Shown one piece after another: positions 12,411-21,570 of a stretch of DNA of 29,264 nt. The stretch lies in IMG/VR virus record IMGVR_UViG_3300030380_002079, positions 1-29,264 of that record. One strand, given 5' to 3'. Position numbers and translations under genes: made by a program. This stretch comes from a virus. A model generated the notes under the pieces. It was given only the letters and a program-made list of their open reading frames with translations. It was not told the DNA's origin and made no database searches. Each line of letters begins with the position of its first letter. Position 1 is the stretch's first letter.

Positions 12411-13624
12411 TGGGTTTAACCAAACCCCAACAAACAGTTATAGATAGCAAATCGAGATTTCGTGTATTAATTAGTGGACGTAGATTTGGTAAAACATTTT
12501 TAGCAATTAATGAACTTGCTCGATTTGCTCGCTATCCAAAGAAAAAGGTTTGGTATGTTGCTCCGTCTTATCGTATGGCCAAAAATATTGTTTGGAATGA
12601 TTTAATAGATCGGTTGTATAAACATAAATGGGTATCAAAAGTGAATCATGCTGACTTAACAGTGTATTTAAAAAATAATTCCACTATAAGTTTGCGAGGT
12701 GCAGACAATGAACAATCACTTAGAGGTGTAGGATTAGATTTTTTAGTATTAGATGAATTTGCAGACATTAAAGATTCCGCTTGGACAGAAGTTCTTAGGC
12801 CCACACTGTCAGATAGAAATGGTCATTGTTTATTTACAGGAACTCCAAGAGGTTATGGCAATTGGTCTTATGGTTTATTTTTAAAAGCAGAAACAGATGA
12901 CGAGTGGGATAGCTTCCAATATACAACACTAGAGGGTGGTCAAGTATCTGCACAAGAAATAGAACAAGCAAAACAAGATTTAGATGAAAGAACTTTTAAA
13001 CAAGAATATCAAGCAAGTTTTGTAAATTATGCGGGAATTATTTATTACAATTTTGATCGTAATAAAAATATTATTAATCATAAACCCGCCCTTAAACAAA
13101 TTCATATCGGCATGGACTTTAATATTGACCCTATGTGTTGTGTCGTTTCTGAAATTCAAAATGATGTTGTTTATATATTTGATGAAATTCAAATATTTTC
13201 TAGTAATACACAAGAACTTGTTGAGGAAATTAAATCAAGATATTTAGGGTATAATGTATATATTTACCCAGACCCCGCATCAAAACAAAGAAAAACGTCT
13301 GCGGGTGGAATGACTGATTTATCAATACTAAAAAATGCAGGATTTAATATTAGAGTTAGAAATAACCACCCATTAATTAGAGACAGGATTAATTCAGTGA
13401 ATGCTAAATTAAAAAATGCAAAAGATGTCAATACCCTTTTTATAGACATCAGTTGTAAAAATGTTATAAAAAGTTTAGAAAGGCAAATTTACAAAGAGGG
13501 TACAGTGATTCCCGACAAAGAAAGTGGTTATGACCACATGAATGACGCAATAGGCTACATGATAGAATATTTATACCCATTACGTAGAAACTTTAAACCT
13601 AACAAACCCATGAGGTGGTCTTAA
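12410..13624 (+). CDS. terL: Terminase large subunit
   Basis: 404 residues. Walker A motif SGRRFGKT at residues 22-29; Walker B FLVLDE with Asp115-Glu116; coupling LFTGTPRG at about 144-151; then the C-terminal RNase H-type nuclease: HIGMDFNIDPM (Asp near 237), YIYPDPAS, and the last acidic residue in DHMNDAIGYM. These are the ATPase and nuclease halves of the packaging motor, which cuts concatemers and pumps DNA into the prohead through the portal. All key residues are present. Start is fixed by the overlap with TerS. Confidence 0.95.
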   Translation: MGLTKPQQTVIDSKSRFRVLISGRRFGKTFLAINELARFARYPKKKVWYVAPSYRMAKNIVWNDLIDRLYKHKWVSKVNHADLTVYLKNNSTISLRGADNEQSLRGVGLDFLVLDEFADIKDSAWTEVLRPTLSDRNGHCLFTGTPRGYGNWSYGLFLKAETDDEWDSFQYTTLEGGQVSAQEIEQAKQDLDERTFKQEYQASFVNYAGIIYYNFDRNKNIINHKPALKQIHIGMDFNIDPMCCVVSEIQNDVVYIFDEIQIFSSNTQELVEEIKSRYLGYNVYIYPDPASKQRKTSAGGMTDLSILKNAGFNIRVRNNHPLIRDRINSVNAKLKNAKDVNTLFIDISCKNVIKSLERQIYKEGTVIPDKESGYDHMNDAIGYMIEYLYPLRRNFKPNKPMRWS

Positions 13625-15054
13625 TGGCATTATACACTAGAGAATTTTTAACTGACAGACATAAACATTATGAGGAAAAATTCAAAGATTGGCATTTTCA
13701 TTTGATGTCTTATTTGGGTGGCCAAGATTATCAAAACGGTTTTCAATTAAATAGATATATTTTAGAATCAGACGAGGAATATATAAAAAGGGCAGAAAAC
13801 ACCCCAATAGACAATCACTGCAAAAATGTTGTTCAAATTTATTCTTCATTTTTATTCAGAGTGCCACCGACAAGAAATTACGGTTCATTAACAGGCGACC
13901 CTCAATTAGAATCATTTTTAAATGACGCTGATTTAGACGGAAGGTCATTTGATAATGTTATTCGTGAGATGCAAATGAACGCAGCAATCTATGGCACATG
14001 TTGGGCCATATTAGATAAACCTGCCGTTGCTTCTGAATCTAGAGCTGCTGAAATTCAATTAGATATTAGACCATACATATCTCTATATACTCCAGAAAAT
14101 GTTTTAAATTGGAATTTTGAAAGAGCCATGAATGGTAAATATACTTTAACCTCTTTAACACTATTAGAAGATTTATACGAAGATGTGGCAACAATTAGAG
14201 TTTGGACAATGGAAGATATAACAACATATATAATCAAAGATTTTAATAATGGTTATTCAACATCAAAGCCAATTTTAAAAGATGAAATGGTAAATGAACT
14301 TGGAAAAATTCCTGCAGTGATATTATATAATCAAAAATCCCAAAGACGAGGAATTGGAATATCTGATCTTAATGATGTCGCTGAATTACAAAAAGCAATT
14401 TATAATGATTATTCAGAAATTGAACAATTAATTAGATTATCTAATCATCCAAGTTTAGTTAAAACACCAAATGTTGAAGCAAGTGCAGGTGCGGGCTCTG
14501 TAATAGAAATGCCTGAAGATTTAGACTCAAATTTAAAACCCTATCTTATTCAACCAAGTTCTCAATCGCTTGACGCAATAATGAACAATATAAACATGAA
14601 AGTAGAATCTATAAATAGATTAACCCACATGGGAGCAGTTCGAGCAACTGAAAGTAGGATACAATCGGGTATTGCTTTGCAAACTGAATTTCAACTTCTT
14701 AATGCAAGGCTTTCAGAAAAAGCAGATTATTTAGAAAATGCAGAAGAACAAATATGGAACTTATTCGCTGAATGGCAATCAAAAGAATTTGACGGTGAAA
14801 TAATTTACCCAGATAGTTTTAATCTTAGAGATTATGCTACTGATTTACAGTTTTTACAAATGGCAAAAGCAAGTGGTGTTAATTCAGAAACATTTATAAA
14901 AGAAATTGATAAACAAATAGCAAGAGCAGTCGTTGATGATGATGAAAAAATTTTTGAAATAGATAATGAAATTAATTTAAAAAGCGAAAGAATTGGTGCT
15001 TTTCCACAACAAGAAATAGAGGGTGAAGAAGTTGAAGAAACGCAAAGTTCCTAA
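13624..15054 (+). CDS. Portal protein
   Basis: 476 residues from ATG 13624, which overlaps the terminase stop (TAATG); an in-frame upstream start at 13615 lies within terL. Features: N-terminal HYEEKFKDWHFHLMSYLGGQ, membrane-like AIYGTCWAILD strand, a LNDVAELQKAIYNDYSEIEQ long helix, and a SRIQSGIALQTEFQLLNARL helix near residue 350, typical of portal clip/stem regions (SPP1 gp6 and DUF4055 like). The C-terminus is acidic (EGEEVEETQSS). Twelve copies form the ring through which DNA enters. The next gene begins inside its 3' end in a different frame. Confidence 0.85.
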   Translation: MALYTREFLTDRHKHYEEKFKDWHFHLMSYLGGQDYQNGFQLNRYILESDEEYIKRAENTPIDNHCKNVVQIYSSFLFRVPPTRNYGSLTGDPQLESFLNDADLDGRSFDNVIREMQMNAAIYGTCWAILDKPAVASESRAAEIQLDIRPYISLYTPENVLNWNFERAMNGKYTLTSLTLLEDLYEDVATIRVWTMEDITTYIIKDFNNGYSTSKPILKDEMVNELGKIPAVILYNQKSQRRGIGISDLNDVAELQKAIYNDYSEIEQLIRLSNHPSLVKTPNVEASAGAGSVIEMPEDLDSNLKPYLIQPSSQSLDAIMNNINMKVESINRLTHMGAVRATESRIQSGIALQTEFQLLNARLSEKADYLENAEEQIWNLFAEWQSKEFDGEIIYPDSFNLRDYATDLQFLQMAKASGVNSETFIKEIDKQIARAVVDDDEKIFEIDNEINLKSERIGAFPQQEIEGEEVEETQSS

Positions 15055-15208
15055 AGACAAAAAATCTGGAGTTCCTAAAAAATATTTGACTGGATTAAAA
15101 GGGTCAAAAAGAAGCCGTCGTGCATCATTGATTAAGAGAGTTGCTGCTTTATATAAAGCAGGTAAAAGAATTCCTAAATCATTACTTAGAGCAAGGACTA
15201 AAGCATAA
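15023..15208 (+). CDS. 61-residue Lys/Arg-rich head-region protein 1
   Basis: GTG 15023 or TTG 15032 starts a frame overlapping the portal gene's acidic tail. Product (VKKLKKRKVPKDKKSGVPKK, then YLTGLKGSKRSRRASLIKRV and AALYKAGKRIPKSLL) is over one third Lys/Arg. A SGVPKKYL.G....R..... IK... motif recurs in small marine phage proteins, as I recall. It ends TAATG into the next gene. It may bind packaged DNA or act during head assembly; location between portal and capsid genes is the basis. Function unknown. Confidence 0.6.
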   Translation: MKKLKKRKVPKDKKSGVPKKYLTGLKGSKRSRRASLIKRVAALYKAGKRIPKSLLRARTKA

Positions 15209-15447
15209 TGGTAGCAAGAAAACCGCTTTCTGCTTCGGTTGTGGCAACATTAAAAAGAAAAGCTAAAGCATCAAAAAGATATACATACGGAACTTTGGCC
15301 AAAGTTTACAGAAGAGGCCAAGGTGCATTTCTAGGTGCGGGAAGTAGGCGTGTTCCAATGGCTGCGTGGTCAATGGGTAGAGTTAATTCTTTCTTACGAG
15401 GTAGTCGTAAACACGACTTAGATTTACGAAAAAAGAAAAAGAAATAA
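15208..15447 (+). CDS. 79-residue basic head-region protein 2, possible frameshift leader
   Basis: MVARKPLSASVVATLKRKAK, then KRYTYGTLAKVYRRGQGAFL and AAWSMGRVNSFLRGSRKHDL, ending in KKKKK. The YTYGTLAKVYRRG.GA ... W...RVNSFL pattern fits a small DUF5824-like phage family (recalled). The gene ends with the codons AAA AAG AAA AAG AAA TAA, and cgA AAA AAG at 15429-15435 is in exactly the register of a -1 slippery heptamer. Without slippage the 79-residue form is made; with slippage a 153-residue fusion results (see next entry). DNA-binding or head-assembly role inferred. Confidence 0.6.
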   Translation: MVARKPLSASVVATLKRKAKASKRYTYGTLAKVYRRGQGAFLGAGSRRVPMAAWSMGRVNSFLRGSRKHDLDLRKKKKK

Positions 15448-15668
15448 AAGGACGAACAGTTTCTTCAAGTGTCTTTTGTAATTGGACGCATGAACAACAC
15501 AATAAATATTCAATTTGTTTTTGTGGCAAATTTGCAACATTCGGTTTTAATTATAGATTTGGTATGTTAGAACTATTATGTTCAGATCATTATTACGAAA
15601 GGATAGGTAATGGCACTAACAAAGAAACAAAAAAAACTACCAATGGCCCTACAAAAAGCCATTCTTAA
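15429..15668 (+). CDS. Cys/His-rich -1 frame extension of the 15208 gene
   Basis: The -1 frame is open from 15411 to the stop at 15666-15668, with no ATG, GTG or TTG before an internal ATG at 15564. After A AAA AAG (15429-15435) a ribosome shifting back by one would read EKEIKGRTVSSSVFCNWTHE and on through SICFCGKF to LLCSDHYYERIG. Cysteines at 15477, 15516, 15522 and 15579 and a CSDH motif (C-x2-H) suggest a zinc ribbon. The fusion (15208-15668) would be 153 residues. A sequencing error or separate non-ATG gene are alternatives. Confidence 0.5.
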   Translation, partial: KKEKEIKGRTVSSSVFCNWTHEQHNKYSICFCGKFATFGFNYRFGMLELLCSDHYYERIGNGTNKETKKTTNGPTKSHS

Positions 15669-15696
15669 AAAACAAAAGAAAAAGAAGGGAAAGTAA
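15610..15696 (+). CDS. 28-residue basic peptide
   Basis: Product MALTKKQKKLPMALQKAILK, then KQKKKKGK. It overlaps the end of the preceding -1-frame extension and comes one base before the next small gene. LPMALQKAI is an amphipathic helix flanked by Lys blocks. Small size makes the call uncertain, but it fits an unbroken run of Lys-rich genes here, and its start follows GAAAGGATAGGTA, a moderate ribosome site. Confidence 0.4.
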   Translation: MALTKKQKKLPMALQKAILKKQKKKKGK

Positions 15697-15697
15697 T

Positions 15698-15781
15698 ATG
15701 CCTTATGGAAAAGGGTCTTATGGCTCAAAAACAGGACGACCACCAAAAAAAATGAAAAAGAAAAAGAAGAAAAAAAAATAA
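15698..15781 (+). CDS. 27-residue MPYGKGSYG-type peptide
   Basis: MPYGKGSYGSKTGRPPKKMK followed by seven lysines. The MPYGKG.YGSK.GRP opening is one I recall as recurrent among very small marine phage proteins encoded near capsid genes. The stop overlaps the next gene's ATG (TAATG at 15779-15783). The Gly/Tyr-rich head and poly-Lys tail suggest a DNA-interacting virion or assembly peptide; function unproven. Confidence 0.5.
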   Translation: MPYGKGSYGSKTGRPPKKMKKKKKKKK

Positions 15782-16244: not shown

Positions 16245-17171
16245 ATGTCGAAACAGGCCACAATAAATAGATTAATTGACACCCATGAAGAAAGAATAAT
16301 TGGTGTATTAAAGACACTTGAAGATAGAATTAGATCGGAATTAACTTCATTGACAGAGGGTGGAGCAAGTTTCAACACTAAATTTGCAATTGAATACAGA
16401 CCTAAAATAAAAGCATTGATTGAAAGTACTTTTTTAAAAGAGGCTGATTCTATTATTCGAGAATATGACGAAATTGTAAAAGAATATCAAAAAGTAGTAA
16501 AAAAATTACCAATAGACCCTAAATTCAAATCATTACAAAAAGCTGATTTAGAAGTTGTTTCTCAATTAAAATTTTTATCATTTACAGGATTTAATGATAT
16601 TGCCAACAGATTTTTAGACACCATTGCAAACGAAGTATATCAATCCGCATTAATTGGTCGTGCATTTAATGATATGGTCAAAAATATAGCAGGCCAAATA
16701 AATGGTGTTTATCAACGAAGTAATGAAAATGCTATAAATAGACTAGTTGCATTTATTGAAAAAAATAGATATTCCGATAATAAATCAACGCTTCAAAGGG
16801 TAGCCTTAGCGAAAAGCACACTTGCTAGTAAATATGGAAGCGACATTCTTGGTGAAAATATGCGTAAATATGCAAGTTTATATGCTCACGACAGTTTAAT
16901 GAAATTTGACGGCCAATTTGTAAAATACAAAGCAGACCAAGCGGGCATTAAACAATTTAAATATGCAGGAACACGAATAGACACAACAAGAAATTTTTGT
17001 GCAAGAACTATGGGTAGAATTTTTACAGAGCAACAAGCAAAAAATTTATGGCAAAATCAGAGGTGGAAGGGAAAGTCTGGTAATGACCCTTTTGTCGATA
17101 GAGGTGGTTATAGATGTAGGCATAGTTTCACTATCTATAATCCTGAATGGGAAAACATACTTGAAGAATAG
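16245..17171 (+). CDS. MuF/SPP1 gp7-like minor head protein
   Basis: 308 residues. The N-terminal 230 residues are helical. The C-terminal domain carries FKYAGTRIDTTRNFCARTMG, a spacer, then NDPFVDRGGYRCRHSFTIYN, the conserved MuF (phage Mu gpF / SPP1 gp7) pattern including its Cys and His positions. Such proteins sit inside the prohead near the portal and are needed for DNA injection or head morphogenesis. ATG 16245 lies 3 bases after the upstream stop. Order portal, small proteins, MuF, scaffold, capsid is normal for siphoviruses. Confidence 0.85.
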   Translation: MSKQATINRLIDTHEERIIGVLKTLEDRIRSELTSLTEGGASFNTKFAIEYRPKIKALIESTFLKEADSIIREYDEIVKEYQKVVKKLPIDPKFKSLQKADLEVVSQLKFLSFTGFNDIANRFLDTIANEVYQSALIGRAFNDMVKNIAGQINGVYQRSNENAINRLVAFIEKNRYSDNKSTLQRVALAKSTLASKYGSDILGENMRKYASLYAHDSLMKFDGQFVKYKADQAGIKQFKYAGTRIDTTRNFCARTMGRIFTEQQAKNLWQNQRWKGKSGNDPFVDRGGYRCRHSFTIYNPEWENILEE

Positions 17172-21053: not shown

Positions 21054-21392
21054 ATGCCAAAAAAAGATTATCTGCAAGGTGCAGTCAATCACTTCAAACA
21101 TCAAGAAATTAAAGTTATTGAAGTTGAAGAATGGGGTTTAGTAGGCGAAGACGCTATATATGTTAAACCTTTTACTCTGTTAGAAAAATCAGAATTATTT
21201 AAAGATAATAACGATCTAATGGTTTTGATCGATATTATAGTAAAAAAAGCTGAAACTAAAGACGGTGAAAGAATGTTTGATCTTGAAAGTAAAGTCAAGA
21301 TGAAGAAATTTGTTGACCCAGATATTGTTGGAAGAATAGCAACAGAAATTATGGGGTCATCACAAACAAACACAGACCTAAAAAAAAAATAA
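21054..21392 (+). CDS. Tail assembly chaperone G-like protein
   Basis: 112 residues, acidic/basic mixed: MPKKDYLQGAVNHFKHQEIK, VEEWGLVGEDAIYVKPFTLL, EKSELFKDNNDLMVLIDIIV and RIATEIMGSSQTNTDLKKK. It ends with ctA AAA AAA AAA TAA, a run of ten A, where a fraction of ribosomes is expected to slip -1 and continue as a G-T fusion (21054-21568, 171 residues). G and GT chaperones load tail tube protein on the tape measure and are absent from the virion. The location between tail tube and tape measure is diagnostic. Confidence 0.85.
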   Translation: MPKKDYLQGAVNHFKHQEIKVIEVEEWGLVGEDAIYVKPFTLLEKSELFKDNNDLMVLIDIIVKKAETKDGERMFDLESKVKMKKFVDPDIVGRIATEIMGSSQTNTDLKKK

Positions 21393-21568
21393 CAAACGAC
21401 CATAATCTTCGGTTTCATTTCTACTTGGCCGAAAAATTACATAAAACGATAGGTGAAATAATGTCAATTCCTGTTGAAGAATTTGAATTATGGAACGCAT
21501 ATTATTCTGTAAAGCATGATGAAGAACAAAATGCTTTAAATAAACAGAAAATGAGTTTAAAAAGGTAA
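21389..21568 (+). CDS. Tail assembly chaperone T extension (via -1 frameshift)
   Basis: In the -1 frame, directly after the A10 run (21380-21389), the sequence is open to 21568: ITNDHNLRFHFYLAEKLHKT, IGEIMSIPVEEFELWNAYYS, VKHDEEQNALNKQKM. The LHKT.GE...IP..EF..W.AYY motif is the common T domain of tail chaperones. It has no start at its beginning (first ATG at 21461). The slip is a canonical poly-A -1 site, as in many siphoviruses. Ends 2 bases before the tape measure gene. Confidence 0.8.
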   Translation: MTNDHNLRFHFYLAEKLHKTIGEIMSIPVEEFELWNAYYSVKHDEEQNALNKQKMSLKR

Positions 21569-21570
21569 TA

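Follow-up and report, generated by a model that had tools for sequence, protein, structure and literature searches.

The locus described here raises a simple question: how could a conserved Cys/His-rich reading frame be translated if it overlaps the end of a Lys-rich gene in another frame and has no start codon of its own? A sequence-only reading of the DNA had proposed that a programmed -1 frameshift near the end of the Lys-rich gene joins the two. We examined this proposal by seeking relatives of the locus among metagenomic viral contigs, phage isolates and cellular genomes and comparing those found.

The junction and its genomic setting

The window, that is the whole stretch of DNA analysed here, is a 29-kb viral contig (29,264 nucleotides) whose head-gene region is related to that of the pelagiphages HTVC111P, HTVC026P, HTVC202P and HTVC112P. 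The source virus is an ocean phage, kin to the phages of SAR11 (Pelagibacter). A series of tiny Lys/Arg-rich genes separates the portal gene (13615-15054) from the following large gene of the head region, which begins at 16245, and the second of the series, counted from the portal, is the carrier gene at whose end the junction lies (Table 1). The carrier protein is strongly basic and has head genes for neighbours; it is assigned to phrog_28338, a family of unknown function. Homologues of the carrier gene were found at other genome positions in HTVC026P, HTVC111P and HTVC202P. In isolated pelagiphages the Lys-rich pair (HTVC026P gp60-gp61, locus L259) lies near the lysis genes and not beside the portal, and in HTVC026P the gene after the second Lys-rich gene starts with an ordinary ATG. 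Since the pair of the isolates lies near the lysis genes and that of the window by the portal, the gene pair itself changes genome location. Two more tiny Lys-rich open reading frames follow the Cys domain on its 3' side (15610-15780), namely MALTKKQKKLPMALQKAILKKQKKKKGK and one beginning MPYGKGSYGSKTGRPPKK. The first of them overlaps the last codons of the extension, so that the tail of the extension is double-coded and poorly conserved.

The geometry proposed for the junction held up on inspection. The codon positions place A_AAA_AAG (15429-15435) in the correct register for a -1 shift, the -1 frame is open from 15411 to its stop at 15666-15668 with no ATG, GTG or TTG until an ATG at 15564, and the recomputed length of the spliced -1 product was the expected 153 amino acids. 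As a signal, the heptamer is present and in register; it is not diagnostic by itself, being common in Lys-rich 3' ends that lack the domain. AAAAAAG occurs 19 times on the plus strand of the window. We dismissed the heptamer as a diagnostic feature because carrier relatives without the domain often have such sites.

Table 1. Positions of the features at the junction and around it, in window coordinates.
Feature	Position	Strand	Basis or remark
Small Lys/Arg-rich gene 5' of the carrier	15023..15208	+	61 aa, phrog_38321-like
Carrier gene, Lys-rich 79-aa protein, zero frame, C-terminal end ..RKHDLDLRKKKKK and stop	15208..15447	+	phrog_28338 (function unknown)
5' hairpin AGTCGT-AAAC-ACGACT	15403..15418	+	stem in 23/23 distinct window-type sequences, 0/39 carrier relatives without the domain
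TAA in the -1 frame, upstream limit for the shift	15408..15410	+	
Open -1 frame with Cys/His domain, no ATG/GTG/TTG before 15564	15411..15668	+	last sense position 15665, stop 15666-15668
10-nt spacer, hairpin to slippery heptamer	15419..15428	+	
Slippery heptamer A_AAA_AAG, in register, proposed -1 site	15429..15435	+	CGA 15427-29, AAA 15430-32, AAG 15433-35
G_AAA_AAG, a further but weaker slippery site of this Lys run; version retained in most relatives	15435..15441	+	sequence
Zero-frame stop TAA; carrier relatives without the domain usually have TAATGG here (overlapping ordinary ATG)	15445..15447	+	
Predicted folded zinc-finger-like domain	15447..15608	+	pLDDT about 85-92 over most of its length; CxC 15516/15522, CxxH 15579/15588
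Tiny Lys-rich gene (28 aa), overlaps the end of the -1 frame in another frame	15610..15696	+	sequence

Selection on the -1 frame

About 90 related loci with the Cys domain were identified in IMG/VR, where a search with a single sequence returned 22 relatives and searches with profiles returned 90 and 107, the best 80 of each being kept. Every copy of the domain comes from a metagenomic viral contig, the sequences are related to one another, and the counts given below are not independent for this group of loci. For one locus (L103) the sequence just 5' of the domain resembles an Illumina adapter (ACACTCTTTCCCTACACGACGCTCTTCCGATCT), and its 5' part was left out. The bacterial and archaeal genomes of GTDB contained no relative of the domain, and no homologue was found in phage records, including those of the isolates HTVC111P, 026P, 202P and 112P.

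Across 61 distinct sequences, compared over the stretch CxCG..ERI, pN/pS was 0.22 in the Cys frame, while the two remaining frames gave 0.99 and 0.96. Over the 22 codons just 3' of the upstream stop it was 0.15 at the window-type loci. This pattern of substitutions indicates that the -1 frame is a real coding sequence that evolves as protein. Since selection acts right from the upstream stop, coding begins at or before that stop, where no start codon exists. One might suppose that the -1 frame is untranslated in the window phage and that the domain is a decaying remnant. We consider this extremely unlikely in view of the strong purifying selection, which extends to comparisons of the window with near relatives (6 synonymous and 2 non-synonymous changes relative to locus L030), and of the fact that no copy of the domain has an internal stop codon.

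Both comparative checks that the sequence-only reading had proposed spoke for its model. In the relatives among the IMG/VR loci the -1 frame has stayed open and conserved, and no locus has the domain as a gene of its own that begins at the junction with an ordinary start codon. The recurrence of the junction in dozens of contigs excludes an assembly error at the A-run. The expectation that homologues would share the same heptamer stood only in part, since a slippery Lys run is present in all window-type loci but A_AAA_AAG is one version of it only.

The Cys/His domain that had been read from the translation also stood with a correction: the pattern C-x-C ... C-x2-H is invariant, but the C and H of the motif CNWTHE, which had been counted as part of it, vary. 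The ligand codons are TGT 15516, TGT 15522, TGT 15579 and CAT 15588, and the residues invariant in 60 aligned members, numbered from 15447, are C24, C26, G27, G33, G39, E42, L44, C45, H48 and R52. This ligand pattern suggests that the domain binds zinc. AlphaFold2 returned a confident compact model (mean pLDDT 84.9) that begins with the residues directly past the stop and extends to about residue 54, a small mixed beta/alpha fold ending with two strands and a helix that bears the last two ligands. Searches of the PDB with the domain, by fold and by sequence, gave no match; Pfam and NCBIfam gave no significant match, and PHROGs gave weak matches only, the best with an E value of 0.0023 in one member.

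Three kinds of 3' end precede the domain

We sorted the loci by the 3' end that precedes the domain, which gave 39 loci in group A (the window included), 22 in group B and 28 in group C. In group A, a Lys-rich gene ending in RKHDLDLRKKKK(K) and a stop is followed by the Cys frame in -1, and the Cys frame contains no ATG, GTG or TTG before the domain in any of the 39 loci (26 distinct junctions). Only 11-13 codons separate the last in-frame stop from the zero-frame stop, and entry into the Cys frame must therefore fall within KHDLDLRKKKK(K) and its stop. The Lys run is the sole obviously -1-prone sequence in that stretch, and in most group A relatives it reads CGC AAA AAG AAA AAG TAA, that is C_AAA_AAG followed by G_AAA_AAG. 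Judged from these comparisons, what lies beyond chance at the junction is not the heptamer but a -1 frame that is protein-conserved and start-less in 39 of 39 window-type loci. The Arg codon in front of the Lys run (15427-15429 in the window) is always CGA or CGC in the domain-bearing loci of group A; CGC accounts for 1 of 170 Arg codons in 12 window genes, in which AGA is preferred. This codon choice may matter for the shift, or it may reflect mere ancestry.

The same A-rich run could in principle restore the frame through transcriptional slippage, by the gain or loss of an A. Transcriptional slippage normally requires longer A runs than are found at most of these loci: the window has an A6 run and two relatives (L009 and L031) have A8, but most window-type relatives have only A5 runs broken by G. 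We regard this route as very unlikely.

Group B comprises loci in which a related gene ending in ..FDKDIVKRAAKRKSRK and a stop precedes a Cys frame in +1, with GCC AAA AGG A at the junction in most. In group C the Cys frame is also in +1, the preceding gene is mostly a 240-aa beta-sandwich gene (phrog_8198), and the junctions read GCC TAA, TCC TAA, GGG TAA or GAY TAA. In one contig of this group (L088) yet another gene stands before the domain. Distant cyanophage relatives of the phrog_8198 carrier are annotated as virion or tail-fibre proteins. At two loci (L019, 2286-3011; L252, 2780-3499) the phrog_8198 gene lies between portal and head genes, a place from which it is absent in the window. 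Counting these +1 arrangements behind other 3' ends, the loci show at least three types of junction, of which the -1 event is one. Different shift sites would be needed in the +1 relatives, and among these GGG TAA and GAC TAA fall outside the classical kind. We rejected the idea that the shift generally takes place at the stop codon itself, because KGKVV is conserved upstream of the stop in group B.

Carrier genes without the domain served as a control. In these, the next gene usually starts at an ATG that overlaps the carrier stop (TAATGG or TAATGA), whereas with the domain the sequence is TAAAAGG, TAAAGGC or TAAAGT and a start codon is never present. The other carrier displays the same contrast, with GAT TAATGG in the absence of the domain and GAC TAAAGT in its presence, and the sharpest pair is ttccttgaagattacgat-TAATGG (L085, followed by an ordinary gene) versus ttccttgaagattacgac-TAAAGT (L251, followed by the Cys domain).

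These comparisons bear on the alternative that the domain is a separate small protein, initiated at a non-standard start and coupled to upstream translation. The start would be ACG 15426 or ATA 15444 in the window, and a TTG, ATG or GTG inside the upstream gene in the +1 relatives. A start that is independent of frame would account for both the -1 and the +1 placements, and aligned window-type junctions do show an ACG directly before the Lys run, which might serve as a start of very low efficiency. With two exceptions (L050 and L076), the +1 loci contain some ATG, GTG or TTG of the Cys frame within the upstream gene. These triplets, however, arise as by-products of the upstream protein's sequence (ATG from GAT GTC; TTG from TTT GAY or CTT GAA), they vary in position, and some are present where no Cys domain follows. 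Locus L082 has lost the usual TTG and has an in-frame TAA ahead of the domain, yet retains the AAA AGG junction. A standard start is missing from L050 and L076 just as it is from all window-type loci, while the ordinary genes in the neighbourhood begin at clear overlapping ATGs. Separate initiation of the domain is, in our judgement, unlikely.

RNA features around the Lys run

A hairpin with the consensus AGTCG(N)AA(A/G)C(A)CGA(C/T)T precedes the Lys run, and all 23 distinct sequences of group A can form its outer five pairs, against 0 of 39 relatives without the domain. Among the 58 12-codon windows of the gene in group A, synonymous variation reaches its minimum over the final 12 carrier codons (GSRKHDLDLRKK), at 0.149 versus 0.327 elsewhere in the gene. 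Relatives without the domain show no dip in this block (0.447 versus 0.442), and a codon-permutation test on the difference between the groups gave p 0.005; because the block was picked after inspection of the data and the sequences are akin, this dip is to be read as moderate evidence. The hairpin, a junction-specific RNA element of group A, lies within this block.

On the 3' side, no conserved stem-loop was detected. RNAalifold predicted 0 pairs on 23 loci, which led us to dismiss a conserved 3' hairpin or pseudoknot-like stimulator, and most single folds 3' of the junction were close to the means of shuffled sequences. Shine-Dalgarno duplexes that stimulate -1 shifts work at 9-14 nt, and A_AAA_AAG is strongly shift-prone in E. 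coli (PMC5009743). The window has no Shine-Dalgarno-like sequence 9-14 nt upstream of the heptamer; the spacer reads TAGATTTACG and the hairpin arm ACGACT stands before it. Upstream hairpins have been described as functional mimics of Shine-Dalgarno duplexes in 70S ribosomes, but the published effect of hairpins immediately beside the shift site is to attenuate -1 and stimulate +1 shifting (PMC6321510). Since published adjacent hairpins attenuate -1 shifting, the sign of the effect of the window hairpin is uncertain.

A hairpin behind the ribosome and a stop beside the take-off codon are also features of bypassing in T4 gene 60 (PMC5009743), and this suggests a ribosomal hop as another way past the stop. 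Peptidyl-tRNA-Lys on the last Lys codon would land 5 nt downstream on an AAA or AAG of the Cys frame (T-AAA-AGG), aided by the 5' hairpin. A Lys codon occupies the landing place in all aligned window-type loci except L071, which has AGA and thus lacks the landing Lys. The same Lys is, however, retained in many +1 loci and is accounted for by the protein. Group C has no matched landing codon, and a -1 slip in the Lys run is simpler. We consider such a hop quite unlikely; it and a non-standard start are both less economical than the -1 slip.

Movement of the domain between carriers

In the tree of the domain, the three contexts require at least six changes, and the well-supported branches alone require at least three for group A and at least four for group C. 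The body of the window carrier gene groups with 36 sequences that lack the domain (support 100/98), a placement to be read with the long branch of the window in the carrier tree and with a single clade of all group A sequences that is not rejected (p-AU 0.27). Compared with its domain-bearing relative L030, the body of the window carrier is 67-88% identical block by block and the last 12 codons are 97% identical. The junction thus seems, from these identities, to travel together with the domain. The trees and junctions indicate that the domain is a mobile module, which stands in the same start-less form behind other genes in many related viruses.

A wider reading, which we offer tentatively and which may well prove wrong, is that the module is a start-less zinc-finger cassette with its own recoding element. 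The unit of exchange would comprise the 5' hairpin, the slippery Lys run, the stop and the domain, the hairpin would act as a Shine-Dalgarno-like or bypass-like stimulator, and the shift would be -1 or +1 depending on where the cassette lands.

Proposed mechanism and comparison with known systems

Conserved start-less coding in the -1 frame, a confined entry window, a slippery Lys run and a junction-specific hairpin were all computed from the loci. What we infer beyond this is the slip, a minor fusion product, zinc binding, a role for the hairpin, and a place and function in the virion. A programmed -1 frameshift in the Lys run probably yields a minor form of the Lys-rich protein that ends in the Cys/His domain. 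Since the domain lies in another frame and has no start of its own, it would probably be made only when a ribosome slips. Most ribosomes would read the Lys-rich gene and terminate at TAA 15445, and a fraction would slip back one base on A_AAA_AAG or on the adjacent G_AAA_AAG to produce the 153-aa protein, which would end in a small zinc-binding domain. The hairpin 10 nt upstream would probably assist, in the manner of the internal Shine-Dalgarno duplex in dnaX. Domain and junction would form a mobile cassette that requires a +1 shift when placed behind other 3' ends. A role in head assembly or DNA contact is suggested by the strongly basic carrier and its position among head genes, and the likely use would be to equip a DNA- or capsid-associated protein of the head region with a metal-binding domain present in a few copies.

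Some phage structural proteins acquire Ig-like domains through -1 or +1 frameshifting, and the direction of the shift varies because recombination lands the domain in different frames (PMC5009743). The sequence-only reading knew of no described counterpart to the window junction, but these Ig-like domains are one in kind, and the closest known. Like the frameshift-added extensions of T3/T7 gene 10, Lactobacillus phage A2 and Listeria phages PSA, A118 and A500, the window arrangement would place a separate C-terminal domain on a fraction of a structural-region protein, with the shift near its end. It also shares with Ig-like extensions a shift direction that differs among relatives and a mobile module on different carriers. 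Unlike them, the window domain has a small zinc-finger-like fold (CxC...CxxH), its carrier is a tiny Lys-rich phrog_28338 protein, and in the window type a 5' hairpin, but no 3' stimulator, is conserved. Given its small mixed beta/alpha fold and the lack of a PDB match, the domain is not a member of the Ig-like subset.

With the dnaX and IS3-type signals the window shares an in-register A_AAA_AAG and a 5' element 10 nt upstream, within the 9-14 nt range of Shine-Dalgarno duplexes; unlike those signals, its 5' element is a hairpin and not a Shine-Dalgarno sequence, it has no 3' stem-loop, and its heptamer varies among relatives. The T4 gene 60 bypass likewise has a hairpin behind the ribosome and a stop beside the last codon of the first frame, but the window junction has neither a 50-nt gap nor consistent matched take-off and landing codons. 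At the Lambda G/GT chaperone, as in the proposal for the window, ribosomes shift by -1 on an A/G-rich run close to the 3' end of a small phage gene and thereby extend the C-terminus. The junction was rejected as a Lambda G/GT tail chaperone, being another gene in the wrong place, and the window has its own candidate at 21054-21570. There, a gene at 21054-21392 ends in an A10 run (CCTAAAAAAAAAATAA) and the neighbouring frame runs on to about 21570 (..PKKKITNDHNLRFHFYLAEKLHKTIGEIMSIPVEEFELW..).

A limited literature search found no description of the domain or of such frameshifting in pelagiphages. If the proposed mechanism is true, frameshift-added domains extend from the Ig-like to a zinc-finger-like fold, and do so in phages of a type whose hosts are the most abundant ocean bacteria. 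A natural stimulator in the form of a 5' hairpin placed at Shine-Dalgarno distance would, to our knowledge, be novel. Standard gene callers that demand a start codon would overlook such a domain. The loci would also amount to a natural experiment in which a single module stands downstream of different 3' ends and in either of two frames, with close relatives that lack it. Because the module occurs in varied contexts alongside domain-less relatives, the sequence needs of phage frameshifting would become readable by comparison, and testable.
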